Source: Nitrospirota bacterium (GTDB taxonomy: Bacteria; Nitrospirota; Nitrospiria; Nitrospirales; Nitrospiraceae). Taken from it: a stretch of 64,000 bases of DNA. Made by a program: the position numbers and the translations under genes. The notes beneath the pieces are model-generated. The model was not told where the DNA came from. It saw only the letters and a list, made by a program, of their open reading frames with translations, and did no database searches. The stretch covers positions 1 to 64,000 of the forward strand of contig JBFLWP010000017.1 of the NCBI GenBank assembly GCA_040757595.1, read 5' to 3'. Positions 33,745 to 62,405 of the stretch are shown here, piece after piece. Position 1 is the stretch's first letter. Every line of letters starts with the position of its first letter.

Positions 33745-33807
33745 CGTGAAACGTAGGAGGTGAGACGTGAGAGGTTTCGTCTCACGTCTCACGCCTCACG
33801 TCTCACG
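33745..33807. repeat. Inverted repeat, family A
   Basis: The left arm CGTGAAACGTAGGAGGTGAG plus ACGTGAGAGG faces the right arm CGTCTCACGTCTCACGCCTC plus ACGTCTCACG. The Lon-like gene ends inside it: the repeat's GAGACGTGA gives its last residues E-T and the TGA stop. Confidence 0.8.
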
Positions 33808-36207: not shown

Positions 36208-36212
36208 CGAGC

Positions 36213-36752
36213 TCACCCGATCACCGGCGGCGGATTGACGGTCGTGGCCTGCGGGCCCTTCTCGCCCGCTTCCACGTTGAACGCCACTTCCGTCCCATCC
36301 TCGAGCTCCTCGAAGACCAGGCCGTGAACCGCGTTCCGGTGAAAGTAGACCTCGCCCCCGCCCTCCTGAAGGATGAAGCCGTAGCCTTCGCGGGGAAACA
36401 GCTTGCACACGACGCCGCGCAGCGGAACCGGCGGCACCCGCACCTCCTTGGAGGCCCGCTTCTCCCGGTATTTCCGCAGCTCGATTTCCACGGAGGCGAA
36501 GGCGGCCCGAATGGCTTCCTCGAAGGTCTTGTCCTCCTTCCGGGCCGTGATCGTGTGCCGGCCCGGCAGCGTCACCACGACCACCGCCTCGGCGACGAGC
36601 TGGGCCTTCTTGTGATGGCGGTTCTTGGTCAGCGTCACCCGCCCGTGGATCAAGTCGTCGTGGCCCTCCTGCAGATCGGCCATGCGCCGCTCGATCTCGG
36701 TTTTCCACCGGGGCGCCATCGCCACATTGCGACTGTCAACACGCAGCTCCAT
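36213..36752 (-). CDS. RaiA/HPF-like ribosome-associated domain fused to a cold-shock domain
   Basis: 179 residues. The N-terminal ~105 residues resemble the hibernation factor RaiA/HPF (E-L-R-V-D-S-R-N-V-A-M, I-H-G-R-V-T-L-T-K-N-R-H-H-K-K, F-E-E-A-I-R-A-A-F). The last ~65 form a cold-shock domain (G-V-V-C-K-L-F-P-R-E-G-Y-G-F-I with the RNA-binding aromatic region, then V-Y-F-H-R-N-A-V and G-T-E-V-A-F-N-V-E). It could dock on idle ribosomes and contact RNA. ATG 36752 is fixed by AGGAGG just upstream. A sigma-54 promoter lies about 90 bases before it. Confidence 0.85.
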   Translation of the reverse strand: MELRVDSRNVAMAPRWKTEIERRMADLQEGHDDLIHGRVTLTKNRHHKKAQLVAEAVVVVTLPGRHTITARKEDKTFEEAIRAAFASVEIELRKYREKRASKEVRVPPVPLRGVVCKLFPREGYGFILQEGGGEVYFHRNAVHGLVFEELEDGTEVAFNVEAGEKGPQATTVNPPPVIG

Positions 36753-40564: not shown

Positions 40565-43273
40565 TCACTCCTTCGCCGCGTCACCGCGTCCCTCTTCAAC
40601 CGCCACCGGCAGCCGCACGATGAACGTGGCGCCCTTCCCGACCTCGCTCTCGCAGGTGACGGTCCCCCGCAATTGCATCACGACCATGCGCACGGTCCAC
40701 AGGCCCAAGCCGGTTCCTTGCTCGACCGGCTTGGTGGAGAAGAACGGCTCGAAGAGCTTGGCGCGATACTCGGGCGGAATGCCCGGCCCGTCGTCCTGGA
40801 TTCGGACCTCGATCCAGCCGCCTTCGGCGGCCGAAGGGGAGACGGGGTGAAGGGGGGAAGGGGCGATCGCCGCGTCTCCGTGTCCCCGCGTCTCCGCGTC
40901 AGCAACGAGCGTCGCCGCCACCGTCAGCGTCCCCTTCCCGTGCGCCTCGCTCATGGCTTGCATCGCGTTCATCATGAGGTTCAGGAACACCTCGTGGAGC
41001 TGCCTCGGGTCCGCCCAGATCGCCGGGAGATCGGATGGGAGAGCGGTCTGCACGACGATTTGGTTCAGCATCAGCTCGTTGGCGAGAAACTCCAAGGTGT
41101 CATTCAGGACCGTTTGCACGAAACAACGTTCGGACCGAGGCTGATAGGGCCTGGCCAGCGACAGGAACCGGTCCGTGATGCGGGCCAGACGAGCGGCAGC
41201 CGACTCGATCGTCCCAAGGTCGGCGGGCAGCGTGGCATATTCCTGCCGGAGCAGCTTTTCCCGGCACAATTGCAGGTGGCCGGTCAGGATGAAGAGGGGA
41301 TTTCTCAGCTCGTGCGCGATCCCGCCCAGAAGTTGCCCCATTGCCGCCAGATGTTCCAGCCGGCGGGCCTGCTGTTCCATCGCCTTGCGCTCGGTAATGT
41401 CTGCATAGATCCCGAGCACCCCGAAGACCTGCCCGGCTCGATCAATCAGGGGGACCTTGCTGGTTCTCAACCAGAGGATGCTCCCGTCCGGTCTCGTCTG
41501 GGGTTCTTCATAGTTCAGCTTGGAGGTCCCGGTCTCCATGACGGACCGGTCGTCCGCCCGATACAACTCCGCCGTCTCCTTCCAGGCCAGCTCGAAATCG
41601 TCTTTCCCGACGATGGCCTCCGGCTCGCCGACGCCCGCCGCCCGGGCAAACAACTTGTTGCAACCGAGGTAGCGCAAATCGCGATCCTTCCAGAAGACAT
41701 GTTCGGGAATGTTGTCTATGATGAGGCGGAGCATCTCACGGGATTGCTGCAATTCGGCTTCCGTGCGTGTCCGCTCCGTGATGTCAACGCCCATGCCTCC
41801 GACAAACCGCTGGCCCGCCGCGTCGCTGACCGGGAACTTGAGGACGAGCCAGTCGAGAGAACGGCCATCGGACGCGGGCACCGTTTCGATCGCCTCAATG
41901 ACTTTACCCTCAGCAAGGACGGCCCGATCGTGCTCGTTCAACTGCCGGGCGACGTCGGCCGGCCACAAGTCATCGTTCGTCTTTCCCTTCCAATCGGCCT
42001 CCTGTAACGAAAAGATCCGCTCCATCGCCCTGTTGACGTAAACGTGACGTCCCTGTGCATCCTTCAGGAACGCCACCGCCGGGCTGTAGCCCATGAAGGC
42101 TTTGAAACGCTCCTCGCTTGCTTTGAGCGCCTCCTCCGTCCGCTTGCGCTCGGTGATGTCGCGATCCACTCCACGATAACCTAGCAGTTGTCCTTTGTCG
42201 TCGAAGACCGGCACGCCGCTGGTTTCGAGCACGACGCGATGGCCGTCCTTGTGGAGGTTCGTGTTCTCCAGACCGGCAAAGGATGTCTGAGCCTCCACGA
42301 TCGCACGGAATTGTGCGGCCATTCGTTCGGCTTCACCCGAAGGCATCAACGTAAAGGGCGTCTTGCCGATCAAGTCCTTCGGCTCGTATCCCAAGAGGTC
42401 CTTGACCCGAGGACTCGCATAGGTGTAAACGCCGTTTCGATCAACTTCCCAAATCCAGTCGCTGGTCGTCTCGACCAAGGCTTGGAACCGTTCTTTGGCT
42501 TGGCGGAGTTCATTCTCCGCCCGTTTGCGCTCGGCGACCTCCCTTTCAAGGCTTTGGACGGCTGCCTGAAGCTGCGCCGTGCGCTCGACGACGCGCTGCT
42601 CCAGCCCGGCTGTGAGCTGACGGACTTCCTCCTCCGCCTGCTTGCGCTCGATCAGGGCGCCGATCAGCTTGGCGGCCGTGGCCAGCCGGCTCTTGGCGAG
42701 GGCGATGAGGGACTCCGGCCGCGGCTCGTATTCCTCCGCTTGCCGCCGGAGCGTCTCCACCGGCAGGTCGTAGCGCGCCGCGACCTCGCGCAGTTTGTCA
42801 GGGTCCTGCGGCGGAGTCCCGTAGCCGAAATTGATGGACCCGACGACCTCGCCCCCGGCCCTGATCGGGACCGCGTAGATGCGAATGCCTCCCAGGCAGG
42901 GAAAATCCGCCGGCTCATTCCGCTCTATGGACGCCTTGGAGACGGCCCAACAGGATTCGTGACAGTGCCACTTGCCACACGACAGCGCTTCACGGTTGTC
43001 CGGCGTGCCGCACCGCTCGCGGGATCCGGCATCGAGCATACGGCACCAGCCGGAGGAGAAGATGCCCAGCGCGTAGTTGCCGTTCCGTTCATACACGGCG
43101 GCCGACGTTTCGAGCAGGGTGAGGTACTCGGCCACGAGCTCGGTCAGCAGTTCCCTGCCGACCGCATCGAGCACCAGACGCGAAGAGTTGAGCGCGGTGA
43201 TGTCGCCATAGGGCTGCACCTGCCACGACCGCCCCGGCTTGGTCACTCTTCCAGGGTTATCATGGAGGCTCAT
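40565..43273 (-). CDS. PocR-PAS-PAS-PAS sensor histidine kinase (kinase A)
   Basis: 902 residues from ATG 43273 (AGGAAG upstream). Order: PocR-type sensory domain (about 25-190) with C-R-M-L-D, C-G-T-P and C-G-K-W-H-C-H-E-S-C-W, a Cys/His-rich pocket; coiled coil (about 200-260); three PAS domains to about 640; HisKA with H-E-L-R-N-P-L-F; HATPase with N-L-M-M-N-A-M-Q, D-D-G-P-G-I and G-T-G-L-G-L. No membrane segment, so it is cytoplasmic. Residues 794-819 are encoded by a family H repeat between two conserved ATPase strands. The second PAS closely resembles that of the protein at 51179-52348. Confidence 0.9.
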   Translation of the reverse strand: MSLHDNPGRVTKPGRSWQVQPYGDITALNSSRLVLDAVGRELLTELVAEYLTLLETSAAVYERNGNYALGIFSSGWCRMLDAGSRERCGTPDNREALSCGKWHCHESCWAVSKASIERNEPADFPCLGGIRIYAVPIRAGGEVVGSINFGYGTPPQDPDKLREVAARYDLPVETLRRQAEEYEPRPESLIALAKSRLATAAKLIGALIERKQAEEEVRQLTAGLEQRVVERTAQLQAAVQSLEREVAERKRAENELRQAKERFQALVETTSDWIWEVDRNGVYTYASPRVKDLLGYEPKDLIGKTPFTLMPSGEAERMAAQFRAIVEAQTSFAGLENTNLHKDGHRVVLETSGVPVFDDKGQLLGYRGVDRDITERKRTEEALKASEERFKAFMGYSPAVAFLKDAQGRHVYVNRAMERIFSLQEADWKGKTNDDLWPADVARQLNEHDRAVLAEGKVIEAIETVPASDGRSLDWLVLKFPVSDAAGQRFVGGMGVDITERTRTEAELQQSREMLRLIIDNIPEHVFWKDRDLRYLGCNKLFARAAGVGEPEAIVGKDDFELAWKETAELYRADDRSVMETGTSKLNYEEPQTRPDGSILWLRTSKVPLIDRAGQVFGVLGIYADITERKAMEQQARRLEHLAAMGQLLGGIAHELRNPLFILTGHLQLCREKLLRQEYATLPADLGTIESAAARLARITDRFLSLARPYQPRSERCFVQTVLNDTLEFLANELMLNQIVVQTALPSDLPAIWADPRQLHEVFLNLMMNAMQAMSEAHGKGTLTVAATLVADAETRGHGDAAIAPSPLHPVSPSAAEGGWIEVRIQDDGPGIPPEYRAKLFEPFFSTKPVEQGTGLGLWTVRMVVMQLRGTVTCESEVGKGATFIVRLPVAVEEGRGDAAKE
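40817..40894. repeat. Family H repeat inside kinase A
   Basis: 78 in-frame bases of GACGCGGGGACACGGAGACG-type sequence encode the 26-residue linker that begins E-T-R-G-H-G-D. It lies between V-A-A-T-L-V-A-D-A and W-I-E-V-R-I-Q-D-D-G-P-G-I. The same position carries repeat sequence in kinases B and C. Confidence 0.8.
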
Positions 43274-43318
43274 GGGTTCTTCCTTTTCCCGCCCAACTCG
43301 TTTTTCTCTGCGCTTCCC

Positions 43319-43400
43319 CCTCACCGTGTCTCCCCGTCTCCGGGTCTCCGCGTCGTCCTCTCGCCCCGTCACCCCTTCGCCGCATCACCGCGTCCCGCTT
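43319..43400. repeat. Family H repeat between kinases A and B
   Basis: CTCACCGTGTCTCCCCGTCT, CCGGGTCTCCGCGTCGTCCT and CGCCCCGTCACCCCTTCGCC units. It overlaps the 3' end of kinase B, encoding its C-terminal G-R-G-D-A-A-K-G; kinase A ends with G-R-G-D-A-A-K-E from a similar repeat at about 40555-40600. Confidence 0.7.
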
Positions 43401-45249
43401 CAGCGGTCAGCGGCAGCCGGACGATGAACGTCGTGCCCTCCCCGACTTCCGTCTCGTAGCTGACCATCCCCTTCAGCGACTGGACGATCATCTGCACCGT
43501 CCAGAGTCCCAGCCCGGTCCCCTCCCCGGGCGGCTTCGTCGTGAAGAACGGCTCGAACAGCAGGTCCCGATGCTCGGGCGCGATCCCCGGCCCGTCGTCT
43601 TGGATTCTCACTTCGATCCAATTCGCCCCGTCACCCCTTCCCCGTGTCCCCCCTTCGCCGTGTCCTTCTTGATCCGACGCGGCGACGCGGGGACGGGGAG
43701 ACGCGGTGCTCACTGCGTCGGCGACCAACGTCGCCGCCACCGTCAGCCTTCCCCGCCCGTGCGCCGCGCTCATGGCCTGCATGGCGTTCAAGACCAGGTT
43801 CAGAAAGGCCTGGTGGAGTTGGGCCGGATCGGAGACGCACGCGGGCAGGTCCGCCGCGAACTCCGTCTTCACGACGATGCGATGCTTCATCAATTCGTTG
43901 GACAGGAAGTCCAGCACCCCGTTCAGGACCATCACGATCGAGCACACCTGCAGCGACGGTTGAATCGGCCGGGCCATGGTCAGAAACCGCTGGGCGATGC
44001 CGCCCATGCGCTGGGCCGCCTCCACGATCTTGTGCAGATCGGGCTCGAGCTGGTCATATTCCCGGTTGGCTACCTTCTCCTTCAGGAGCTGGACGCGGCC
44101 GGTCACGACGAACAGCGGGTTCTTGAGCTCGTGCACGACTCCGCCCAGCAGTTGGCCCATCGCGGCCAGTTGCTCGATCCGCTGGGCGTGCCGCTCCATC
44201 TGCTTGCGTTCGGTGATGTCCTGCTTGATCGCGATGAAGTTGGTGATTTCGCTGTTGTGGCTGCGCACGGGCGTGATCGTCATGTCCTCCGTGTAAAACG
44301 ACCCGTCTTTCCTCCGATTGACCAACTCCCCGCGCCAGATAGACCCCGCCTTGATCGTCGCCCAGAGCCGTTGATAAAAGTGCTGATCCTGCTTGCCCGA
44401 CTTGAGCAGGCGCGGGTTCCGGCCGATCGCCTCGGCGGCCGCGTAGCCGGTCGTCTTCGAAAAGGCCGGATTGACCCAGAGGATCGTCCCGTCCGCATCC
44501 GTGATCACGACCCCGTTGGCGGCCGATTCCAGCGCGCGGGTCACGAGTCGAATCTGCTCCTCGGCCCGCTTCCGCTCGGTCAGGGTGTTCAGCCACTGGT
44601 CCAGTCTGGCCGCGGACCGGTCCTTGGCGAGAAAGACGTCGGGCGGCAGGTAGTAGGGGTTGTCGTGCAACTCGGTGCCCACCGCCACGATCGGATGGGT
44701 CGCCAGGATGTCGAGCTGGACCTCGGGGGTGAATCGCCGGCGGTCGTACTGGCAGAGGGCGAGGCAGCGGCTGCCGGGAAAGAACCGGTTCAGCTTGGCC
44801 TCGTACTCGATCAGGCGTTCGGAGCCGGGGAGGCCCCGCAGGGCCCAGGTCATCTCGCCGGTCACGCGGAGCGCCGGGTAGCCCTCCTTGATGACCGCTT
44901 GCTCGGTCGCTGCGCGCAACAGCGCGATCATCCGGTCCGGGTCAAAGGCGCCCTCGCGCAGGTAGGCCTCCTGCACTGTCAGAATCTGCAGTTGGCCCCG
45001 TGAAAGGAACGGCTCCACCTCCAGCCCGTCGTTCCGCAGATAGGCCAGGATCGCATCGGCGGTTCGGGCGTCCACGATGTAGAGGACCTTCTCGCCCCGT
45101 TCGAGCCCCTGGCGGAGGAACGGGGTGAGCAGGGTTCGGTGCTCCTCCTCCGTCTCATAGAGCGAGCAGAGGTGCGCGCCCGGCTTCAGATTGGCGAGCG
45201 TGGGCATCACGTCGGGGCTTGCGGCGGTCGGATCTGGCCGGTCGTTCAT
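43369..45249 (-). CDS. MEDS-PAS sensor histidine kinase (kinase B)
   Basis: 626 residues from ATG 45249, whose ATG overlaps the stop of the small Cys protein. The N-terminal MEDS domain (about 20-200) begins G-A-H-L-C-S-L-Y-E-T-E-E-E-H and contains F-L-R-Q-G-L-E-R-G-E-K-V-L-Y-I-V; such domains occur in DcmR-like sensors of small molecules. One PAS (about 240-350: S-A-A-N-G-V-V-I-T-D-A-D-G-T-I-L) follows, then HisKA (H-E-L-K-N-P-L-F) and HATPase (D-D-G-P-G-I, G-T-G-L-G-L). Residues 513-543 are repeat-encoded, at the site equivalent to that in kinases A and C. Confidence 0.9.
   Translation of the reverse strand: MNDRPDPTAASPDVMPTLANLKPGAHLCSLYETEEEHRTLLTPFLRQGLERGEKVLYIVDARTADAILAYLRNDGLEVEPFLSRGQLQILTVQEAYLREGAFDPDRMIALLRAATEQAVIKEGYPALRVTGEMTWALRGLPGSERLIEYEAKLNRFFPGSRCLALCQYDRRRFTPEVQLDILATHPIVAVGTELHDNPYYLPPDVFLAKDRSAARLDQWLNTLTERKRAEEQIRLVTRALESAANGVVITDADGTILWVNPAFSKTTGYAAAEAIGRNPRLLKSGKQDQHFYQRLWATIKAGSIWRGELVNRRKDGSFYTEDMTITPVRSHNSEITNFIAIKQDITERKQMERHAQRIEQLAAMGQLLGGVVHELKNPLFVVTGRVQLLKEKVANREYDQLEPDLHKIVEAAQRMGGIAQRFLTMARPIQPSLQVCSIVMVLNGVLDFLSNELMKHRIVVKTEFAADLPACVSDPAQLHQAFLNLVLNAMQAMSAAHGRGRLTVAATLVADAVSTASPRPRVAASDQEGHGEGGTRGRGDGANWIEVRIQDDGPGIAPEHRDLLFEPFFTTKPPGEGTGLGLWTVQMIVQSLKGMVSYETEVGEGTTFIVRLPLTAEAGRGDAAKG
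43621..43713. repeat. Family H repeat inside kinase B
   Basis: 93 in-frame bases encode a 31-residue linker (V-S-T-A-S-P-R-P-R-V to G-R-G-D-G-A-N) between V-A-A-T-L-V-A-D-A and W-I-E-V-R-I-Q-D-D. Both GGACACGG and its complement occur, so the segment can fold as a hairpin. Confidence 0.8.
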
Positions 45250-45500
45250 TGGGCGCTCGCGACGCTGGCGCGCGGCTTGGCGATGGTCGGCTGGGCCTGT
45301 CGGCACACCGAGCAGCGCCCGGCCTTTTCGACCTTGAGCCCGCCCCACAGGCCGGCCCGCGCCTCCTGCATGAACTGCTCCACCTCTTCGAACCCGGTGA
45401 TGGTCACGACGCCGGCCGCCTTGGCGAGACACGGACCGCAATAGCTCCTGTCCAGATGCTCCTCCAGGACGTGGAGCAGGGCGTGGATCCTATCCGTCAT
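45246..45500 (-). CDS. Small Cys-rich protein coupled to kinase B
   Basis: 84 residues with C-G-P-C-L-A-K-A near residue 21 and C-S-V-C-R-Q-A near residue 63, two C-x-x-C pairs that could bind a metal or form disulfides. Its TGA overlaps the kinase B ATG (ATGA), so production of the two proteins is coupled and it may be a co-sensor. I do not recognise the family. Confidence 0.7.
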   Translation of the reverse strand: MTDRIHALLHVLEEHLDRSYCGPCLAKAAGVVTITGFEEVEQFMQEARAGLWGGLKVEKAGRCSVCRQAQPTIAKPRASVASAQ

Positions 45501-45956: not shown

Positions 45957-46335
45957 GGCTTTCCTCCTCACCTCCAAAACACGAGCAGCCCGACTGGGCG
46001 GAGCCCTGATCCGTCCCTTCCCGCTGAGCACACAAAGGGCGGAGCAAGAGAAGTGCCCTTAGAGGCACGACCGAGAGCATGGCAAAAACGCCAGGATTTT
46101 CGACGAGATGCGTGAGATTAGCGGCCGACGACGCTGCGTCGAGCGGAGAGACCTCGCCGCCCCTGTTGCCTTTGGCTACAGCCTGGGGAGGGTGACTGTC
46201 CCTTCACTCCCCTCTGTCTCAGGGACGATCCGTGGATGGGGAGAGGAGGTAACGCGGGGACGCGGAGAGTGGATGAAAAGGGGACGGGGCGATGAAAAGC
46301 GATGCGGCGAAGGGGCGAAGAAGCGAAGAAGAACC
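45957..46335. other. Intergenic region with promoter and repeats
   Basis: 379 bases between the WYL-like gene and kinase C. It holds a sigma-54 candidate (46044-46058) and the left part of a long family H repeat (46238-46375). The rest shows no gene I can support. Confidence 0.6.
46044..46058 (-). promoter_or_regulatory. Sigma-54 promoter candidate
   Basis: On the minus strand GGGCAC-TTCTC-TTGC followed by T. It differs from TGGCAC-N5-TTGCT only in the first base. Transcription would start near 46033, about 77 bases before the WYL-like gene, and could read on through the small Cys protein and kinases B and A. Confidence 0.55.
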
Positions 46336-50254: not shown

Positions 50255-51118
50255 CTATCTCACTACCAGCACCGGACAAGGCGCCCGGTGCAACACGGTG
50301 TGCGAGGCGCTGCCCAGCAGCAACCGCGTCGCTCCGCGACGGCCACGGGACCCCATGAGGATCAGATCGGGCTTGGTCTCCCCCGCCCAGCCGAGGATGG
50401 CGTGGCCCGGGTCCCCCAGCGTGACCGAGCCGGACGCCCGGTGGCCGAGCGCGGAAAGCCTCTTCGCCACATCGTCCACGAAGTCCCGCGCGCTCGCGAT
50501 CGCCTTCTCCTTCAGCGCCTCGGATTCCGAAATTCCCACGGGCCAGAGCGGCGCAGCGAAGGGCAGGATGGTCAGGACCGTCACCTCCGCCGGGTCCTTG
50601 AAGGGCTTCGTGGCCAGAAACTTGTGGGCCGCCCCGGCGTCCTGCTCGCCCTCCACCGCCAGCAGGACCCGCTTGAGCGCCCGCATGGGCTTGTTGACCA
50701 CGAGCGTCGGGCAGGGCGCGCCCGTGACGACGCGGTGGGACACGCTGCCCAGGAGGATCTCCTGCACCGGGCCGAGCCCTCGCGCACCCACGACGATCAG
50801 GCCCGCCCGCTCCTGCTCCGCAGCCGCCAGGATCGCGTCAGCCGGCGCGCCGACCTCCAGGCGCTTGACGGCCGGGCCGGTGTCGCCCGGCAGGATCGAG
50901 ACGACGCGGTCGAGCAGCCGCTCGCCGTCCTCCTTCATCCCGCGCTCGACCGTCGTGTAGAGCTCCTGGGCGACTTCCGGCACCATCATCGGATAGGCCG
51001 GCTTGGGCACGTCCAGCGCGTGCAGCACGACGACTTGCTCGGCCCGCGCCAGGTGCGCGAGCGCCCGCGCCGCCTCGTACGACTGATCGGAACCGTCAAC
51101 GGCCAGTAAGATTCTCAT
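50255..51118 (-). CDS. Tandem universal stress protein
   Basis: 287 residues, two UspA domains. The first begins M-R-I-L-L-A-V-D-G-S-D-Q-S and has V-V-G-A-R-G-L-G-x8-L-G-S-V-S-H near 105-121. The second begins R-V-L-L-A-V-E-G-E and has M-G-S-R-G-R-R-G-x8-L-G-S-A-S-H near 254-270. Both keep the ATP-binding glycines. It is 13 bases upstream of the acetate-CoA ligase, so the two are probably co-transcribed. Confidence 0.92.
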   Translation of the reverse strand: MRILLAVDGSDQSYEAARALAHLARAEQVVVLHALDVPKPAYPMMVPEVAQELYTTVERGMKEDGERLLDRVVSILPGDTGPAVKRLEVGAPADAILAAAEQERAGLIVVGARGLGPVQEILLGSVSHRVVTGAPCPTLVVNKPMRALKRVLLAVEGEQDAGAAHKFLATKPFKDPAEVTVLTILPFAAPLWPVGISESEALKEKAIASARDFVDDVAKRLSALGHRASGSVTLGDPGHAILGWAGETKPDLILMGSRGRRGATRLLLGSASHTVLHRAPCPVLVVR

Positions 51119-51178: not shown

Positions 51179-52348
51179 TTAGCTGGGTCTTGGATAATGC
51201 GTCTTCAAGCATTCCGGACAGATGCCATGACTGAACTCGGCTTTCGAATGCGTGGCCACATACACCTCCATCGCCTGCCACTGGTCACGTTCGTTCCGGA
51301 TCTTCTTGCAGTGCATGCAGATGGGCAGGATCCCTTCCAGGATCCGGATCTGGCCTAACGCCTCTTGGAGCTCGCGAATGAGCTTTTCCCTGGTCTCGTC
51401 CGCCCGCTTGCGCTCGGTGATGTCGCGCTTGATTCCAACGTAGCAGACGGGCGCATTCTGCGCATCCCGCACGGCGAACGCCGACAGCTCGATGTCGACC
51501 GTGCGCCCGTCCTTCGCTCTGGAAGTCACTTCGCCGCGATAGGCGCCGTTCCTCGCCAGATCTCCGGCGATGAGCGAGAACGTCTCCTTGCCCAGATGGA
51601 TCGCCGGCGTCTGACCCAGCAACTCGCCGTCGGAGTACCCGACGAGCGAGCGATGGGCTGCGTTCTGTTCCAGGTAATTTCCTTGCGTGCCGATGATCGC
51701 GATCGCGTCGTTGGAATGCGCGATGATCTCTCTGTAGAGGGCCAGTTTCTCTTCTTCCCGCTTCCGGTCGGTGATATCGATGGCCATGCCTCCCACGAAC
51801 TTTCTGCCTCCGGAGGTGTTGACCGGAAACTTGAACACCAGCCACTCCCGCGGCCCTTCGCCGGGAGTGGGCACGGTCTCGATAAACTCCGAGCAACGGT
51901 TGGAGGCCAGCACTTCCGCGTCATGGTCACGAAGCCGCTGCGCGACCTCCGCCGGGAGAAGTTCCACATCTGTCTTGCCCTGCCACTCAGCAGGCGTACA
52001 ATTGAATCGGCGCACCAACGGCTGATTGACATACACGTAGCGGCCGGCCTCGTCCTTGAGAAAGGCGACCGCGGGGCCATGGTCCATGAAGGCTCTGAAG
52101 CGCGCCTCGCCGTCTTGCAGGGAGACATGGGCCTGCCGGATCAGCGCGAGGATCGTGCCGGCGACCAGGAGCGAGACGATCCCGCCTGTCACCAAATAAT
52201 CGGTCGTCACCCGTCCGTGGAAGAAGAGGCTCATGCCAGCCGCCAAAAACTCCGTGAGCCCGATGGAGATCCAAACGAAATGCCACAGACTGATCCGACT
52301 CACCCTTTGAGCCAGGTATCCGGCGCACTTTGACAATTTGCCATCCAT
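51179..52348 (-). CDS. Membrane PAS-PAS protein with C-terminal C-x2-C module
   Basis: 389 residues from ATG 52348 (AGGGAAG upstream). Two hydrophobic segments (about 20-45 and 55-75) are followed by PAS1 (about 85-210) and PAS2 (about 215-335), with no kinase, cyclase or DNA-binding domain. The C-terminus has I-C-M-H-C-K-K-I-R-N-E-R-D-Q-W near 348-362 and F-S-H-G-I-C-P-E-C near 374-382, a recurrent but uncharacterised ending of PAS and receiver proteins that could bind zinc. PAS1 closely matches the second PAS of kinase A, so the two probably bind a similar ligand. Confidence 0.85.
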   Translation of the reverse strand: MDGKLSKCAGYLAQRVSRISLWHFVWISIGLTEFLAAGMSLFFHGRVTTDYLVTGGIVSLLVAGTILALIRQAHVSLQDGEARFRAFMDHGPAVAFLKDEAGRYVYVNQPLVRRFNCTPAEWQGKTDVELLPAEVAQRLRDHDAEVLASNRCSEFIETVPTPGEGPREWLVFKFPVNTSGGRKFVGGMAIDITDRKREEEKLALYREIIAHSNDAIAIIGTQGNYLEQNAAHRSLVGYSDGELLGQTPAIHLGKETFSLIAGDLARNGAYRGEVTSRAKDGRTVDIELSAFAVRDAQNAPVCYVGIKRDITERKRADETREKLIRELQEALGQIRILEGILPICMHCKKIRNERDQWQAMEVYVATHSKAEFSHGICPECLKTHYPRPS

Positions 52349-52414
52349 TGGCTTCCCTTTCACACCGCCTTGTCCTTTCCCGACGACACATGCAATGAAC
52401 ACTCCCAACCGTTG

Positions 52415-55400
52415 TTATTTCCAATCTCCCGTCAAGTAGAACGGCGCCCAGTAGAAGGGATCGCCGAACCGCTCGGTTCCGAGCAGCGCCACCTGGGCCT
52501 TTTGCAAGGCCTCGTCCTTCGGCATCGTCCGGAGGTTCCGGTAAAAGGCCTCCATCAGCTTCGCGGTCGAGAGATCGCTCACGCTCCACAGGCTGGCCAC
52601 GATGGACGGCGCGCCGGCGTAGATGAACGCCCGGTTCATGCCGATCACTTCGTCGCCGGACGTGGCCACGCCGAGCCCGGTCTGGCAGGCGCTCAACGTC
52701 ACGAGGTACGGCTTGAGATCCAGCGCGAAGACCTCGCTGGCGGCCAGCCGGCCGTCCTCGCGACGCTCCCGGTCCATTGCCAGCCGGAGCCCCGTGTAGA
52801 GCGGGTCTAACTCGCTGAACTCCGCGTGGCTGGCGAAGTGGAGCACGTCGTAGCGCCCGCTCTCTTCCTTGGCCGCCGCCTCCGAGGCCTCGCCCCTCAC
52901 GCGGACGGCCGCCGAGGGGTACAGGGCCGCCAGCGCCTCGACCTCCGCCTGGGCATAAGGCAGGTCCAGCTCGGGATTGCCCAGGTCGGGATTGCCGAAC
53001 GCCAGCAACCGGGAGCCCCTGGGACGATCTTTGGCGAGCGCGTGCTGGAGCACCGCGGCGCTCGGCGCGAAGAAGAGTGGAGAGTCCTGGATCAGATACC
53101 GCTCGCTCGAGTGGAGCGCCTGGAAGGGCAGATAGTGGAGGCTGTCGTAGGGCACGATGCCCAGCCGTTTCCCGTGGATCAACGGCTTCACCGGCCGGAT
53201 GAGCAGGTCATAGAGGCCGCGGGCCAGACCCTCCTGCTCCGCCCGGTCCCGGTTCGCGATCGCCTGCCGGAATTGCCTGATCTTGTCCGTCAGTTCGCGC
53301 CTGCCGATCGGCACGGTCCGCACGCTCAAGGCCTGCGCCTCCACGACCCAGACGTAAAGCCGGTCCTCGCCCGGAAAGTATTCGAGCAGGGTCACGTCCG
53401 GGGACAGGGAGGGACGGAAGCTCTCGTAGGTCAACGGAGCCGGGCTGACGAGCGACGCCAACTCCGGCTCCGCCCGTTTGATCTTCAGGACGATCCCTCG
53501 GTAGCGGTCCACGAGCTGCGCGACGGCGCCCGAGGCCGGGGCGCCGTCCGTCCCCGCCTCGGCTCCTGCGGCAACCGGCAGGCCGCGCGCCTGCCGGCTC
53601 TCCTTCAGCAACAAGTCCCCAGCGGCCGCCCGGACGTCCCGCTCTTCCTGCAAGAGCGCGCCGTTGCGGAACCGGACCTCCTTCGTCGCCAGCAGATCCA
53701 CGAGCCCCCTGGCCTTGGCCCGCTCCAGCGCCTCGAATCCCTTCCCGGCCCCGTAGAGCTCGGTCGCGAGCACGATCAACTCTCCGTAGATGCGCTGCTT
53801 GTTCGCCTGGAACAGGCGCTTGTTCAGATCGGTCTCCAGGGCGGAGCGGATCGAGTCGAGGTTGTCCGCGGCGCCGAGGTCATTGCGGTAGGCTTCCTCC
53901 TTCAGCAGGTGCGCGAGGGCCTTGACCTGCGTCGCCGCGGCCGGCGCGTCCTTGGCCTCTTCCAGTCCTTTCAGAATCCCGGTGAATCGCGCGGCGGTGG
54001 GCTGATCCAGCAGCACAAACAGGGAGTCGGTCTTGGCCGCATAGAGCGAAAACAGCTCACGCTTGACCCGTTCCCCCTCCGCCGGATCCGTGATCGCGGC
54101 GAGGGAGGGGAGCCGCGATTCGAGGAGCCTCGCCTCCGTGATGAGCTGCTCCGCAAACTTCGAACGGAGGTGCCACTTCAGCTCCTCCAGCCCGTCCGCC
54201 TCGACCCGCGCCAGCGTCGTTTTCAGCAGCTCCGCCCCCTTTCGGTGGTTCCCCTCCAGCACGTGGGAGTAGGCAGTGAGCCCCTCCGCGACCACGTCGC
54301 CGAAGCTCAGCCTGGCGCGCTTGAAATAGTCGCGGGATTCCTCGACGAGGGCCCGGCCCTTCTGGATCTCGCCCACATTGATGTAAGCGTCCCCGACCAT
54401 CAGCGTGACCCAGGCGTAGCCTTCGAAGTAGCTGATCTGCTCCCGCTCGGGTGCGAGCAGCACCGCCTGCGCGACGTCGGCATAGTGCCGCCTCGCCTTC
54501 TCGCCCTGGCCGATCACGTTCCGATAGTCCCCGCGGAAGTAGTGGATGGTCGTCCTGCCGCCCTCAGCCGAGGTGATCCCTTTGATCAGGATTACGTCCG
54601 GCGGGAGGCCGGGATTCTTCATCGCCACGTCAATAGCCGCCTCCCGGTCCTTGCCCTGGAAGAGGTGCTTGCGGCGCTCGTACAGGGCGGTCAAGGCCCG
54701 CTCCGCATCCTCGAGCCCCTGGTCGTAGCTACCCAGCCTGGCCTCCACCGCGCTGAGCCGGGCGTAGGTGACCGAGGTGAAGTCCTCCTGCGGCGACAGG
54801 GCGACCGACTCCCGGAGCAGGCGGATCGCCTCCGCGTAGCGGCCCAGCTCGGCCAGCAGCCAGCCCAGTTGGCTCAGGGCCCGGCTGGCCTCATCCGGCT
54901 TGCCCTCCCCCTTGGCCCGCTCGATCACCGACCGGAACGCCGGAACGGCCTTTCCATAGTCCCCGTCGAAATACAGCCGGTCCGCCTCGTTGAACGCTTC
55001 CGAGTAGCGGGGGTCCGGTTTGAAGCCGCCGGCCGTCATACGGGCGGCGGTTGCATACTTGCCGGAGGCGGCGTAGGCCGCCAAAATCTCGTCTCCCTGT
55101 ACCTCTATCCCGATTTTACGGAACGAATCCTTGGCCACCATGAGCCATTCCTGCTCCTGCTCCTGATTGCCCAGGTTGCGATAGGCCCGGCTCACGGCGC
55201 CCGCGGCGACGCCCCGCCCTCGGAAGAACTCCCGCCGCTCCCCCGACGACGCCAGGTTGATCAGGAGCGACATGGCCTCGAAGTGCTTCAGCGCCCGCTC
55301 GCCCACCTGCACGGCCTGCCGGTCGTTCCCCAGCAAAAACTGCAGCACCGCCGAGGAGGACTCGGCCATCGTGACGGTCTTGAGCATGTCCACGTCCGGC

Positions 55401-55888
55401 GGCCAGCCGTGGTGCGCGACCGCATAGTCGAGGATCGCGTCCCGGTCTGACGTGCCGGCCCGCCCCTTCCACCGCTCGGCGGTGAGCGAGAGCGCCTGCT
55501 CGGCCGACGCCAGCCCCTCCTGGTAGCTCCCCGCCTTGGACTGGATGATCGAGAGCTGGGCGTAGAGGAGGGCCGTATCCAACCCCCGCTGCTCCGCCAG
55601 CCGGATCGTCCCTCTGGCCTCCCGCTCGGCCTCTTCGAACCGCATGGCTTCCGCATAGGCCCAGCCCAGCAGGTTCCTGACGGAGACGGTCGCGCGCGGG
55701 TCGCCCTTCTGCTCCGCCTCGCTCACCGCCTCCTGGAGCGTGCGGATGGCCTCTTCGTACTTCTGCTCCTCGAGCAGCGCCGCGCCTTCCTTGTGCTTGC
55801 CGGACACGTACGGGCCGGCGCAGGCCGCGAGGGCGACCAGCAGGATCCACAGAATTGACGATTGAATCATTGCCGATTGACGATTCAT
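52415..55888 (-). CDS. TPR lipoprotein with caspase-like CHAT protease domain
   Basis: Up to 1157 residues. The N-terminus is a lipoprotein signal with the lipobox L-A-A-C (about residue 23). Tetratricopeptide-like helical repeats occupy most of 30-780. The C-terminal CHAT domain (about 830-1157) keeps the catalytic His in L-H-F-A-S-H-A-E (His1021) and Cys in L-S-A-C-Q-T-G (Cys1068). It is predicted to be a membrane-anchored periplasmic caspase-like peptidase. Start ATG 55888 or 55870 is uncertain: both lie in a family G repeat with no ribosome site. It follows the DUF4384 gene by 96 bases. Confidence 0.88.
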   Translation of the reverse strand: MNRQSAMIQSSILWILLVALAACAGPYVSGKHKEGAALLEEQKYEEAIRTLQEAVSEAEQKGDPRATVSVRNLLGWAYAEAMRFEEAEREARGTIRLAEQRGLDTALLYAQLSIIQSKAGSYQEGLASAEQALSLTAERWKGRAGTSDRDAILDYAVAHHGWPPDVDMLKTVTMAESSSAVLQFLLGNDRQAVQVGERALKHFEAMSLLINLASSGERREFFRGRGVAAGAVSRAYRNLGNQEQEQEWLMVAKDSFRKIGIEVQGDEILAAYAASGKYATAARMTAGGFKPDPRYSEAFNEADRLYFDGDYGKAVPAFRSVIERAKGEGKPDEASRALSQLGWLLAELGRYAEAIRLLRESVALSPQEDFTSVTYARLSAVEARLGSYDQGLEDAERALTALYERRKHLFQGKDREAAIDVAMKNPGLPPDVILIKGITSAEGGRTTIHYFRGDYRNVIGQGEKARRHYADVAQAVLLAPEREQISYFEGYAWVTLMVGDAYINVGEIQKGRALVEESRDYFKRARLSFGDVVAEGLTAYSHVLEGNHRKGAELLKTTLARVEADGLEELKWHLRSKFAEQLITEARLLESRLPSLAAITDPAEGERVKRELFSLYAAKTDSLFVLLDQPTAARFTGILKGLEEAKDAPAAATQVKALAHLLKEEAYRNDLGAADNLDSIRSALETDLNKRLFQANKQRIYGELIVLATELYGAGKGFEALERAKARGLVDLLATKEVRFRNGALLQEERDVRAAAGDLLLKESRQARGLPVAAGAEAGTDGAPASGAVAQLVDRYRGIVLKIKRAEPELASLVSPAPLTYESFRPSLSPDVTLLEYFPGEDRLYVWVVEAQALSVRTVPIGRRELTDKIRQFRQAIANRDRAEQEGLARGLYDLLIRPVKPLIHGKRLGIVPYDSLHYLPFQALHSSERYLIQDSPLFFAPSAAVLQHALAKDRPRGSRLLAFGNPDLGNPELDLPYAQAEVEALAALYPSAAVRVRGEASEAAAKEESGRYDVLHFASHAEFSELDPLYTGLRLAMDRERREDGRLAASEVFALDLKPYLVTLSACQTGLGVATSGDEVIGMNRAFIYAGAPSIVASLWSVSDLSTAKLMEAFYRNLRTMPKDEALQKAQVALLGTERFGDPFYWAPFYLTGDWK

Positions 55889-55990
55889 AAGCGATTGATT
55901 GCGCGACGACTTTTGCTGAAGTTATCCATTGGCGATGCTCATTCCTGATCCTTTCAACGAATCAATGACTCTCTGAATCAATCGTCACTC
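55857..55990. repeat. Repeat region, family G (GATTGAC/GTCAATC)
   Basis: ATTGACGATTGAATCATTGC, CGATTGACGATTCATAAGCG and ATTGATTGCGCGAC units occur on the left, and AACGAATCAATGACTCTCTG plus AATCAATCGTCACTC on the right. The left part encodes the first residues of the CHAT lipoprotein; the right part overlaps the end of the DUF4384 gene (TGA at 55985). Confidence 0.65.
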
Positions 55991-56899
55991 TCTCTCGACC
56001 GTCGTGAGCGTCACGACGGCCTCGGCCAGCTCTCCGCCGGCGGCCGCGCCGCCGCCCGCCCCCGTCGCCGGCTTTTTCGGCCGCAGCTCGATGCCCCGGA
56101 CCCGTTCCTGGAGCCCGTCGAGGTATTTCCGGGCGTCCGCGGTCGCTTCGCTCTCGGCCAGCTCCTGACCGAAAGGCCTCGTGCCGGCCAGAGCCTTGAC
56201 CGCTTCGGCGCCGAAGGGCGCCTTCACCATGAACTCGTACGGGCTGTCCGGTCCACCGAACGTGTAGGTCTGGCCCGCCTTGATCAACGCCTGCTGGGCG
56301 AAGAGGTTTGGGACCAGGTGCACGACCTCGCCGTTGGCCTGGTAGTAGTCCAGCTTGAGGTAGGCGTCCCGCTCGCTCCAGACGTAGACGACCATCCGCT
56401 CCCCCTCTCGGAAGGCGGCCGGATCCTTGTTCGTCCAGACCTTCAGACGGAACGCCGAGGGATTGACGAGGAGCGGGGTCTGGGCGGCCTGGGCGACCTG
56501 TTTCGCGTTGACCCGCTGGTTGATCAGGGACGTGACTTCGGCCGGGTCCAGTTGCGCGGTGAGCGCCACGCAGACCTTCCGGCCCTGCTCCTCCTCCTTG
56601 AGGATCTTCAGGTTGCGGAGCATGGCCCGGCTGAGGCTCTTGACGATGTCGTCGGCAAGCTGGTAGTTCGCGACCGTGGTGGAGGATTCCACGAAGACGT
56701 GGTGGCTCTCGATCGCCCGCTGCTTGGCCAGCGCGAGCGCCATGGTCTTTCCTTCCAGCGCGCTCTCCCGATCCCCGTACTGATAGCAGGCCTCCCCGCT
56801 GACCGCCTCCAGGCTCCCGGCCTGAGCCGGCGGGCCGGCCGCGAGCCCTGCCCAGGCGACCATGACGACCGCCAGCCACTTTTCGCCCCTTGCGCGCAT
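55985..56899 (-). CDS. Exported DUF4384 protein
   Basis: 304 residues with a signal peptide (W-L-A-V-V-M-V-A-W-A-G-L-A-A-G). The region about 25-140 contains A-L-A-L-A-K-Q-R-A-I-E-S, similar to the start of exported LPP20-like modules. The DUF4384 domain at about 150-240 has L-K-V-W-T-N-K-D, F-R-E-G-E-R-M-V-V-Y-V, Y-L-K-L-D-Y-Y-Q-A-N-G-E-V-V-H-L-V-P-N and the closing P-F-G-A-E. DUF4384 domains often accompany peptidase or TPR partners; here the CHAT lipoprotein follows directly. Confidence 0.82.
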   Translation of the reverse strand: MRARGEKWLAVVMVAWAGLAAGPPAQAGSLEAVSGEACYQYGDRESALEGKTMALALAKQRAIESHHVFVESSTTVANYQLADDIVKSLSRAMLRNLKILKEEEQGRKVCVALTAQLDPAEVTSLINQRVNAKQVAQAAQTPLLVNPSAFRLKVWTNKDPAAFREGERMVVYVWSERDAYLKLDYYQANGEVVHLVPNLFAQQALIKAGQTYTFGGPDSPYEFMVKAPFGAEAVKALAGTRPFGQELAESEATADARKYLDGLQERVRGIELRPKKPATGAGGGAAAGGELAEAVVTLTTVERE

Positions 56900-56957
56900 C
56901 GAGCCCTCCTTCCCAAGCCGTCAGCTATCCGCTTGCAGCGGTCAGCGCCTCTGAACT

Positions 56958-57052
56958 CGACGCGGAGAAGGGGTGACGGGACGACGCGGCGATCTCCGTT
57001 TCGCCGTGTCACTGTGTCCCCGCGTCTCCCCTTCGCTCCATCCCCGTGTCAT
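56958..57052. repeat. Family H inverted repeat
   Basis: The left arm CGACGCGGAGAAGGGGTGAC plus GGGACGACGCGGCGAT faces the right arm TTCGCCGTGTCACTGTGTCC plus CCGCGTCTCCCCTTCG. It ends at the stop codon of the permease gene. Confidence 0.75.
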
Positions 57053-58281
57053 TCATACCTCAGCGCGTCGATCGGGTTGAGCCGCGACGCCTTGTTGGCC
57101 GGGTAGAGGCCGAAGAAGATGCCGACCCCGACCGAGAAGAGGAACGCCACCGCCACGGCCCGCGGCGACACGATCGCGGGCCACCCGATCACGGTCGTCA
57201 CCAGCCGGGCGCTCGCGACGCCCGCCAGGACCCCCAGCACCCCGCCGACCGTGCTGAGGATCACCGCTTCGACCAGGAACTGCATGAGGATGTGCCGGCG
57301 TTTGGCGCCCACGGCCATCCGGATGCCGATCTCGTGCGTGCGCTCGGTCACCGAGACCAGGAGGATGTTCATGATCCCGATGCCGCCGACCAGCAGCGAG
57401 ATCGAGGCGATGCTCAACAGCATGAGGACCATCGTGCGGCTGGCCCCGGCCGAGGCCTTGGCGATGTCCTCCATCGTCCGGATCGTGAAGTCGTCCTCCT
57501 GCCAGGCCGGCAGCCTGTGGCGCGTGCGGAGCAGGTCCTTGATCTCCGGCACCACCGCGGCGGCCTGCTCGCGCTTCGCCGTGGCGACCATGATGATGCC
57601 GACCGTGCCGAGAAACTTGGTGCCCAGCACCTTGCGCTCCGCGGTCGAAAACGGAATGTGGACGACGTCGTCCTGATCCTGTCCCAGGAGCGACTGGCCC
57701 TTGGGCGCCATGACGCCGATGACGCGCAAGGGCACGTTCTTGATCCGGATCTGGGCCCCGATGACTTCCTCGCCCCGCTCGAAGAGGTTCTCCGCGGCGG
57801 TCTTGCCCAGGACCGCGACCTTCGCCCCGTTGTCCTCGTCCGACTGGGTGAAGAACGTTCCCTGGGCCATCGGCCAGTCTCGGATGTCCGGATAGACCGC
57901 GGTCGTCCCCAGGACGATGGTGCTCCAGTTCTTGTTCTCGTGCACGACCTGGAGCACGGCGCGCGTCGCGTAGGTGACGGCCGAGACCTCCGGAATCCTC
58001 CGCGGGATCTCCTTCGCGTCCTCGACCGTGAGCGTGGAGACGCCCCCGAACCCGGTTCGCACGCCGCTGACCGTGGTGGCGCCGGGAATGACGATCAGCA
58101 CGTTGGTGCCGAGGCTGGCGATCTGCGCCTGGACCGACGCGGCCGCCCCCTGCCCCAGGCTGACCATCGTGACCACCGCGCCCACGCCGATCACGATGCC
58201 GAGCATGGTCAGCCCGGCACGGAGCGGATTGCGCCCCAGCACCCGGAACGCCAGTTGGACGGTCATCACTAAAAAATTCAC
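57049..58281 (-). CDS. MacB/FtsX-type ABC permease
   Basis: 410 residues. The N-terminal transmembrane helix (M-L-G-I-V-I-G-V-G-A-V-V-T-M) is followed by a large periplasmic MacB_PCD domain (about 45-240) with Q-I-A-S-L-G-T-N-V-L-I-V-I-P-G, then three C-terminal helices (I-A-S-I-S-L-L-V-G-G-I-G-I-M-N-I-L and the rest). It is the permease half only: unlike MacB itself there is no fused ATPase, and no ATPase gene is adjacent. With the adaptor upstream it should form an export or mechanotransmission machine using an ATPase encoded elsewhere. Confidence 0.9.
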   Translation of the reverse strand: MNFLVMTVQLAFRVLGRNPLRAGLTMLGIVIGVGAVVTMVSLGQGAAASVQAQIASLGTNVLIVIPGATTVSGVRTGFGGVSTLTVEDAKEIPRRIPEVSAVTYATRAVLQVVHENKNWSTIVLGTTAVYPDIRDWPMAQGTFFTQSDEDNGAKVAVLGKTAAENLFERGEEVIGAQIRIKNVPLRVIGVMAPKGQSLLGQDQDDVVHIPFSTAERKVLGTKFLGTVGIIMVATAKREQAAAVVPEIKDLLRTRHRLPAWQEDDFTIRTMEDIAKASAGASRTMVLMLLSIASISLLVGGIGIMNILLVSVTERTHEIGIRMAVGAKRRHILMQFLVEAVILSTVGGVLGVLAGVASARLVTTVIGWPAIVSPRAVAVAFLFSVGVGIFFGLYPANKASRLNPIDALRYE

Positions 58282-58288
58282 AGGAACC

Positions 58289-58372
58289 TTGGGGCTCGAG
58301 GCGCGGGGCTAGAGAGGGGAACAGGGGTGTTCCTTATATCCCCTCGCCCCTTGCCTCGCACCTCTCGCCGTT
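58289..58372. repeat. Inverted repeat, family I
   Basis: The left arm TTGGGGCTCGAGGCGCGGGG plus CTAGAGAGGGGAACAGGGG faces the right arm TATCCCCTCGCCCCTTGCCT plus CGCACCTCTCGCC. It fills the gap between the adaptor and the permease. Confidence 0.7.
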
Positions 58373-58374
58373 CA

Positions 58375-59709
58375 TTATCTCAGTTTCGGGATGCCCCCGA
58401 AGCCGGGCGGGAGGTCTTTCTGTCCCGCCGCGTCCGGCGTTTCGAGCCCGAGGATCACCGGATCGCCCTCCTTCAGGTCGCCTTCCAGCATCTCCGTATA
58501 GGTCGAATCGGCGACGCCGGGCTTGATCGCGACCGACCGCGGCTCCCCTTTCGCGCCGACCGTCCAGACCTCCGCCTTCTTCCGCTCCGCGGCCGAGCCC
58601 GGCATCTTGAACCGCAGCGCGACGTTCGGCACCCGCAGGGCGTCGTCCCTGTGGGCCGTCACGATCGTGACGTTGGCCGTCATCCCGGGCTTGAGCCTGA
58701 GGTCCCGGTTGTCCACGCCGATCACCACGTCGTAGGTGACCACGTTCTGGATGCTGATCGGGGAGTTGCGGACCTGGGTGATCGTCCCGATGAAGGGCTC
58801 CTTCGGATAGGCGTCCACGGTGAACCGGGCTTCCTTTCCCTCCGTGACCCCGCCGATGTCCGACTCGCTCACGTTCGCGTGCACCTCCATGCGGGTCAGA
58901 TCCTGCGCGATCATGAAGAGCGTCGGGGTCTGGAAGCTGGACACCACGGTCTGCCCCACGTCCACGTTGCGGGAGACCACGATGCCGTCCACCGGGGAGT
59001 AGATCGTGGTGTAGCCCAGATCCAGCTCCGCGTTGGAGAGCGTGGCCTGGGCCTGGTCCACCTGGGCCTGGGCCACTTCCACCTGGGCGGCCGCGTCGCG
59101 GAAGCTCGTCCGGGCCAGGTCGAGGTCGGCCTGGGCCACGAACTGTTGCCGGCGCAGCGTGTCCATCCGATCCATTTCCAGCTTGCGCTGCGCGAGCGCC
59201 GCCTGCGCCTTGAGCAGGGCTCCCTGGGCGTTCCGCAAGGTCGCACGGGCCTGGCTCACGCGGGACTGGTAGACGGCGGGATCGATCTGCGCGATCATCT
59301 GCCCCTGCTTGACCACCGAATTGAAGTCCGCATACAGCGCCTTGATCTTGCCCGTGACCTGGCTGCCGACCTGCACGGAGACCACCGGATTCACCGTGCC
59401 GGTGGCCGTCACGGTCGCGGCGATCGGCCCGCGATCCACCGTCGCGGTCTTGAACCGAATCGGCTGCTCGCCGGGCGAGAGCCAGAACCAGAGGCCGATC
59501 GAGACGGCGCCCAACCCGGCCAGGAGCAGAAAGACGCGAAGCCGGCGCGGGCGGCCCGTGGCCGGCTGGAACGGGCTCGGCTGCTCGGGAAGGGATTCGA
59601 CCGGCTCGACCGGCAGGACCAGCGCGGACGCTTCGATCACCGGCTCCTCCGAGCCGGGGCCTCCCGGCTCGTCCTGCCTTGATTTCGACTCCTCGGCCTG
59701 CACCGTCAT
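58375..59709 (-). CDS. MacA-like periplasmic adaptor
   Basis: 444 residues from ATG 59709. There is an N-terminal membrane anchor (V-F-L-L-L-A-G-L-G-A-V-S-I-G-L-W-F-W) at about 60-78 after a charged cytoplasmic tail. The lipoyl/hairpin region follows, with V-G-S-Q-V-T-G-K-I near 115, a coiled coil rich in Gln/Ala (A-Q-A-A-L-A-Q-R-K, A-Q-V-D-Q-A-Q-A-T-L), Y-T-T-I-Y-S-P-V-D-G-I-V near 230, then beta-barrel and membrane-proximal domains. It connects an inner-membrane ABC permease to an outer-membrane channel. A sigma-54 candidate lies about 55 bases before the ATG. Confidence 0.9.
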   Translation of the reverse strand: MTVQAEESKSRQDEPGGPGSEEPVIEASALVLPVEPVESLPEQPSPFQPATGRPRRLRVFLLLAGLGAVSIGLWFWLSPGEQPIRFKTATVDRGPIAATVTATGTVNPVVSVQVGSQVTGKIKALYADFNSVVKQGQMIAQIDPAVYQSRVSQARATLRNAQGALLKAQAALAQRKLEMDRMDTLRRQQFVAQADLDLARTSFRDAAAQVEVAQAQVDQAQATLSNAELDLGYTTIYSPVDGIVVSRNVDVGQTVVSSFQTPTLFMIAQDLTRMEVHANVSESDIGGVTEGKEARFTVDAYPKEPFIGTITQVRNSPISIQNVVTYDVVIGVDNRDLRLKPGMTANVTIVTAHRDDALRVPNVALRFKMPGSAAERKKAEVWTVGAKGEPRSVAIKPGVADSTYTEMLEGDLKEGDPVILGLETPDAAGQKDLPPGFGGIPKLR

Positions 59710-59762
59710 GATGCGGTTCGACCCCTGAGCGTGGATTACAGTGAAGAACGCCACTGGACAAA

Positions 59763-59777
59763 GCAAGAGGGGTGCCG
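59763..59777 (-). promoter_or_regulatory. Sigma-54 promoter candidate
   Basis: On the minus strand CGGCAC-CCCTC-TTGC followed by TT. It differs from the consensus only in the first base. The expected start is near 59752, 43 bases before the MacA-like ATG. It would drive the adaptor, permease, DUF4384 and CHAT genes. The 207-base gap (59710-59916) contains no other feature I recognise. Confidence 0.55.
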
Positions 59778-59916
59778 AACTCGATAGGGTCGCCAAAGAG
59801 GGACGCGAACAATATCAATGGGTTCAGAGTCTGATTCCGGTGCGAGCGTGAGGAGCCGAGCAGAATGGGGAGAATCTCCCCAGGAGGAGTCGGACCCATG
59901 CGGCGGGGAGGGGCAG

Positions 59917-62019: not shown

Positions 62020-62051
62020 GGACGTTCCTGCCTCCCGATGGACCGGAGGCA

Positions 62052-62066
62052 GCAAGAGCGGTGCCA
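62052..62066 (-). promoter_or_regulatory. Sigma-54 (RpoN) promoter
   Basis: On the minus strand TGGCAC-CGCTC-TTGC followed by T, a perfect match to the consensus. Transcription would begin near 62040, about 20 bases before the ATG at 62019. Confidence 0.75.
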
Positions 62067-62339: not shown

Positions 62340-62354
62340 TGGCATCGGCCTTGC
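62340..62354 (+). promoter_or_regulatory. Sigma-54 (RpoN) promoter
   Basis: TGGCAT-CGGCC-TTGC followed by T, with exact spacing and the accepted TGGCAT variant. Transcription would begin near 62366, 40 bases before the Usp ATG at 62406, whose ribosome site (CTGGAGG) lies within the leader. Confidence 0.75.
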
Positions 62355-62405
62355 TCACCTATTCAACCACGAGCCATTGATTCCTTGACGATCGCTGGAG
62401 GTCCT

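Follow-up and report, generated by a model that had tools for sequence, protein, structure and literature searches.

The DNA analysed here, called the window throughout, is a stretch of 64,000 nucleotides from a Nitrospirota bacterium (NCBI GenBank assembly GCA_040757595.1, contig JBFLWP010000017.1, positions 1 to 64,000), a Nitrospira-like member of the order Nitrospirales and relative of nitrite oxidisers whose genome comprises 3.37 Mb in 36 contigs. Four minus-strand genes at positions 52415 to 59709 are the subject of this study; they encode a MacA-type adaptor, a MacB-type permease, a DUF4384 protein, and a lipoprotein in which tetratricopeptide repeats (TPR) precede a CHAT domain. Gene products were searched against Pfam and NCBIfam profiles, and fold searches were performed with Foldseek on predicted models. 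The following features were located (module numbers refer to the grouping developed below):

59762 to 59777, minus strand: sigma-54-like -24/-12 element CGGCACCCCTCTTGCT upstream of macA, with one mismatch to TGGCAC-N5-TTGCW
58375 to 59709, minus strand: MacA/HlyD-family periplasmic adaptor, 444 amino acids (aa) from the ATG at 59709, module 1 (Pfam HlyD_D23, 3e-20)
57049 to 58281, minus strand: MacB-type permease without an ATPase domain, 410 aa, GTG start, module 1 (MacB_PCD, 1e-48; FtsX, 9e-22)
55985 to 56899, minus strand: DUF4384 protein, predicted to be exported, 304 aa, module 2 (Pfam DUF4384, 3e-21)
52415 to 55888, minus strand: TPR-CHAT lipoprotein, 1157 aa, module 2 (CHAT, 1e-68; TPR matches)
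55820 to 55888, minus strand: lipoprotein signal peptide of the CHAT protein, lipobox LAA-C23 (predicted from sequence)
52826 to 52828, minus strand: codon of the catalytic His1021 (motif HFASH-A), invariant in 23 aligned CHAT domains
52685 to 52687, minus strand: codon of the catalytic Cys1068 (motif LSACQTG), likewise invariant in 23 aligned CHAT domains

Gene calling in the window, the Pfam matches, and an alignment with MacB bear out the preliminary description of the locus, which had listed four co-directional genes including an ATPase-less MacB-like permease. The best NCBIfam match of the adaptor was MacA/PRK11578 (1e-57), below the equivalog cutoff. The permease aligns to residues 258-646 of Escherichia coli MacB, coupling helix included, with the N-terminal ATPase domain absent; the four-gene cluster itself contains no ATPase gene. 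The genes are separated by 93, 149, and 96 bp. Read-through from the macA promoter into the DUF4384 and CHAT genes is likely, since inspection of these gaps revealed neither a sigma-70-type promoter nor a convincing terminator, and a single transcript of all four genes is plausible.

Co-occurrence was determined for 21 MacA-permease loci and 236 Nitrospirales genomes, and the two halves of the cluster were found to be independent of each other. DUF4384-CHAT is lacking from 19 of the 21 loci, at which tblastn detected no remnants of it. A conserved block consisting of MgtE, a dienelactone-hydrolase-like gene, MacA, the permease, in some cases a PAS gene, and a universal stress protein (USP) recurs, whole or in part, without DUF4384-CHAT: in such relatives the USP gene follows the permease directly or nearly so, and at one of these loci (L075) a PAS gene 63% identical to that of the window lies between permease and USP. 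A full-length CHAT protein of this kind is found in two of the 236 genomes, the window's own and G018, at the same site and as a DUF4384-CHAT pair in both. In a wider sample of the phylum, all other CHAT matches with E <= 1e-80 cover only residues ~650-1157, and no plasmid record was found to hold a full-length relative. Two flanking genes of the block lie downstream of the CHAT gene in the window:

51179 to 52351, minus strand: PAS-domain protein, directly downstream flank (PAS matches; the listed open reading frame, 51179-52408, starts from a TTG, and the ATG at 52351 is likelier)
50255 to 51118, minus strand: tandem USP, downstream landmark of the conserved block (Usp, 2e-50)

The DUF4384-CHAT pair is an old resident of its site, as judged from its divergence and its GC content at third codon positions (GC3), both of which match those of the flanking genes. 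Between the window and G018, protein identity is 73% for CHAT and 75% for DUF4384, and the 4-fold sites differ by 0.47 and 0.46, respectively; the corresponding ranges for the flanking genes are 67% to 84% and 0.41 to 0.52. Recent horizontal transfer is not supported by these values. The pair may have arisen at this site either by an ancestral gain followed by several losses or by an old transfer.

A possible envelope-stress sensor, in which the permease controls the protease through its TPR domain, had been proposed in the preliminary description. As one integrated system of four genes, the FtsX-fold permease would signal through MacA and the DUF4384 protein to the protease, in the manner in which FtsEX switches on cell-wall hydrolases. 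The same gene order in two genera, the similar divergence of all genes, and the shared upstream sigma-54 box are in keeping with such a system, and periplasmic enzymes under the control of FtsX-fold permeases are known (PMC7668044). The co-occurrence counts, however, reject a conserved four-gene system, and control of the protease by the permease is not supported: besides the loci without DUF4384-CHAT, relatives of the DUF4384 and CHAT proteins are found without MacA or permease, the set includes no ATPase, and the two permeases from CHAT-bearing genomes fail to group as a clade. The four-gene sensor is thus considered very improbable. We regard it as fairly probable, instead, that two separate envelope modules stand in tandem, most likely on one sigma-54-driven transcript, the ATPase of module 1 being supplied in trans and module 2 acting as an envelope protease.

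In module 1, MacA and the permease constitute an old, monophyletic, ATPase-less pair. An ATPase gene is absent between or beside the two genes at all 21 orthologous loci, whereas all 14 close paralogs sampled show the order MacA-ATPase-permease, and in the permease tree the 21 orphan and 14 tripartite permeases fall on opposite sides of one fully supported branch. The pair resembles MacAB-TolC, a type VII ABC transporter, in its adaptor, its MacB_PCD/FtsX permease, and the order of the two; it differs from that system in having no fused or adjacent ATPase and in its position behind a sigma-54-like promoter, within a stress block (MgtE, hydrolase, USP). Contact with the ATPase is made in MacB by coupling helices, and nucleotide-binding domains may be separately encoded (PMC5985334). 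The corresponding docking segment (permease residues 309-330) is 93% conserved within the orphan set, and its consensus residue is the same in the orphan and tripartite sets at 95% of positions, as compared with 56% in the periplasmic domain; for the C-terminal (minor coupling) tail, the agreement between the two sets is 92%. Retention of the docking helix alongside divergence of the periplasmic domain is the pattern to be expected if the orphan pair is still served by an ATPase encoded elsewhere. Sharing of ATPases between transporters is known, for example for MsmK (PMC4519317). A candidate for the partner ATPase called for in the preliminary description is found in a paralogous MacA-ATPase-permease operon of the same genome (L092:5688-9160, G000:C2), the permease of which is 62% identical. 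Module 1 would accordingly be an efflux or mechanotransmission pair whose own ATPase gene was lost and whose energy would come in trans from an ATPase of the MacB/LolD type.

Alternatively, the pair could serve as a passive scaffold or sensor and need no ATPase. This would agree with the lack of an adjacent ATPase gene at every orphan locus and with two genomes, G004 and G035, in which no close paralogous ATPase is present, but retention of the docking helix and C-terminal tail approximately as in the ATPase-coupled paralogs is unexpected if contact with an ATPase was lost, and we consider ATPase-free function improbable. A conserved ATPase-less pair with an essentially unchanged docking helix offers a clean test case for whether a MacB-type exporter can share an ABC ATPase.

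The window contains seven sigma-54-like boxes, as compared with 1.2 expected by chance, and judged from this one sequence alone the box upstream of macA could plausibly be a chance match. Its recurrence across other genera renders it credible: boxes with <=2 mismatches were found upstream of macA at 10 of 19 orthologous loci, belonging to several genera and mostly at ~-30 to -70 from macA, and were absent (0/13) upstream of the tripartite paralogs. With <=1 mismatch, the count was 6/19, as against 36 of 1374 random 600-bp pieces. The source genome has an rpoN gene. The sigma-54-like promoter noted in the preliminary description thus held up on comparison; since it recurs at orthologous macA loci and is absent from the tripartite paralogs, it is assigned to the MacA-permease pair, CHAT-less genomes included. 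The position of the box points to the ATG at 59709, rather than the upstream TTG at 59796, as the likely macA start. Further boxes in the window lie at 62051-62066 (minus strand), 62340-62355 (plus strand), and 46043-46058 (minus strand); the one preceding the MgtE gene matches the consensus perfectly, which suggests a sigma-54-regulated stress island.

The CHAT domain of module 2 scored 232 bits (Pfam cutoff 24), and its His1021-Cys1068 dyad is intact, as had been described, along with the TPR lipoprotein character of the protein. Its lipobox (MNRQSAMIQSSILWILLVALAAC(23)AGP) is formed by the segment LVALAA-C23 with Ala/Gly at +2/+3, and the G018 ortholog, the start codon of which is ambiguous, has a comparable one (...ILAIVILLVAC-GGP). 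Location in the envelope by means of a lipid anchor is supported by these sequences, in line with the earlier suggestion of a peptidase outside the cytoplasm. A dispersed repeat was rejected as the source of the signal peptide (a single copy of the 15-mer is present in the genome). The predicted model of the protein had a predicted local distance difference test score (pLDDT) of 81, mostly >90 in the CHAT domain, and its closest solved folds were separase (4e-15) and Csx29 (4e-14). DdvA, a transmembrane anti-sigma factor of Myxococcus, was also among the Foldseek matches; a literature search yielded no account of its domain composition. A second CHAT protein of the genome (L090:8861-11959, G000:C10; 1032 aa, many TPRs) has no DUF4384 or MacA neighbour, and its signal-like N-terminal segment passes only a permissive heuristic.

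Three characterised proteins were compared with the window protein. Csx29 of the type III-E CRISPR system (Craspase) shares the TPR solenoid followed by a C-terminal CHAT domain with a His-Cys dyad (distant profile match, 9e-6) and is activated allosterically via its TPR domain (PMC10028731). The window protein differs in its lipoprotein signal peptide, its larger TPR region, and an NCBIfam Csx29 score of 21 against a cutoff of 300; no Cas7-11 or Csx30/31 gene was found beside the CHAT gene, the neighbours of which are MacA, permease, PAS, and USP genes. Separase, which gave the top fold matches, likewise joins a helical solenoid to a caspase-like domain, but is eukaryotic and cytoplasmic or nuclear, with 11-12% identity to the window protein. 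For the third protein, the cyanobacterial divisome protein HetF, we know of no link to MacA or DUF4384. HetF is also a membrane-associated CHAT/TPR protein (PMC8406250), yet it carries its CHAT domain at the N-terminal end (aa 1-555) and one transmembrane segment in place of a lipid anchor. By the separase and Csx29 folds, the TPR-CHAT architecture is of an allosteric kind, and this part of the earlier sensor proposal is supported. On the model of Csx29, it is proposed that the CHAT domain would be held in check by the TPR solenoid and released on binding of a ligand or of the co-encoded DUF4384 protein, whereupon the lipid-anchored protease would carry out limited cleavage of an envelope or surface protein.

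The DUF4384 protein consists of a signal peptide (residues ~1-27), as announced in the preliminary description, an Lpp20/Tip-alpha/FlgT-like domain (~30-140), and an Ig-like DUF4384 domain (163-242). Its model (pLDDT 82) matched Tip-alpha and Lpp20 with a Foldseek probability of 1.0 but weak E values (best 5e-3). The likeness to such envelope proteins is confined to the N-terminal domain, the C-terminal Ig-like domain being additional. Cys38 and Cys110 are invariant in 15 aligned sequences, and location in the envelope is supported by the sequence. Literature on DUF4384 was limited to incidental mentions. Relatives elsewhere, most of them exported, adjoin LPP20 lipoproteins (several cases), CHASE2 sensors, two-partner secretion (TPS) genes, and CHAT genes. 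In gammaproteobacterial metagenome-assembled genomes (L138, L139, L142-L144), CHASE2 and DUF4384 genes are directly adjacent, so that this pairing crosses phyla. One protein of a Nitrospira metagenome-assembled genome (L101:9425-11053, G058:C51) has a TIR domain fused to the DUF4384 domain. A CHAT gene lies within 7 kb of DUF4384 at 5 of 16 close Nitrospira loci (0.18 expected), loci that are not fully independent, some being from related genomes and two being the window and its ortholog. Of the co-occurrence suggested as a check in the preliminary description, the proximity of DUF4384 and CHAT was therefore recovered, and that of all four genes was not.

Several points weigh against the two-module interpretation. 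The shared gene order in two genera may indicate some functional link between the modules. Genome G004 (95% complete) has the orphan pair, yet nothing in it was closer than 46% identity to the tripartite ATPase, so that this paralogous ATPase cannot serve as donor in all genomes. Most DUF4384 loci have no nearby CHAT gene, which argues against DUF4384 as a dedicated CHAT partner. Directly following the catalytic His, the window protein and its G018 ortholog have Ala, as against Gly in 20 of the 23 aligned domains, an exchange that could weaken catalysis. Finally, the signal-peptide calls were made with a home-made heuristic rather than a dedicated predictor.

Module 2 might also be an exported protease of the effector or immunity type, serving defence or self- or contact-triggered killing, and inserted by chance in a stress operon. 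Effector functions are known for CHAT and caspase proteins (PMC10028731, PMC10907252), the distribution of the full-length CHAT protein is patchy, and the TIR fusion of a DUF4384 relative also speaks for this reading. No PADLOC family was matched (E <= 0.001), however, by the CHAT, DUF4384, MacA, or PAS protein, the neighbourhood contained no recognisable Cas7-11, toxin, or immunity gene, a lipoprotein anchor is at odds with cytoplasmic phage defence, and divergence and GC3 indicate long residence rather than recent mobility. Little probability is therefore given to an effector role.

The CHAT protein of module 2 belongs to a broader group of seemingly exported CHAT proteins in the phylum. TPR-CHAT proteins of ~800 aa, mostly with signal-like N-termini, were observed in many Nitrospirota genomes beside ShlB-type transporters and TPS exoproteins (L095, L110, L170-L183, L188, L191, L203, L204, and similar loci), some of them also beside CHASE2 sensors. 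The combination looks like a recurring, undescribed association; in the open-library literature, no paper linked the CHAT domain to two-partner secretion, or a CHAT protease to the periplasm. In a sample that was not random, 24 of 50 CHAT genes had an ShlB-type transporter within 3.5 kb. By a crude signal-peptide test, a signal-like N-terminal segment was present in 16 of these 24 proteins, as compared with 84 of 258 background open reading frames. The stricter form of the heuristic gave 29/50 CHAT proteins against the same background, and a first, permissive form separated poorly (34/51 against 173/366). Class-wide export of Nitrospirota CHAT proteins is probable from these counts.

The TPS-adjacent proteins of Nitrospira (for example Ca. 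N. defluvii FP929003, L095/L112) share with the window protein the signal-like N-terminus, the TPR and CHAT regions, and the intact dyad, and DUF4384 is near some of them. They differ in their length, in belonging to another subfamily (~30% identity over CHAT), and in lying beside ShlB/TPS instead of a MacA-permease pair; no TPS exoprotein is adjacent to the window CHAT gene. Given that dedicated envelope proteases, SphB1 and LapG among them, process TPS exoproteins (PMC5422565), proteins of the ~800 aa class may reasonably be supposed to serve in surface-protein maturation or shedding. A wider proposal, which we hold to be doubtful, is that TPR-CHAT proteins are a general class of regulated envelope processing proteases in Nitrospirota, often beside TPS, and that here a lipid-anchored member and its DUF4384 partner were put under the sigma-54 promoter of the ATPase-less pair, whereby envelope proteolysis and an ATPase-sharing pump would be co-induced. 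Bacterial CHAT proteases studied so far are mainly cytoplasmic and act in immunity or division; if the exported proteins are active, caspase-like regulated proteolysis extends to the bacterial envelope.

Elsewhere in the window, the minus strand encodes a LonB/LonC-like protease (33796-36708) and two multi-PAS histidine kinases (40565-45441), one with a MEDS and the other with a PocR sensory domain.

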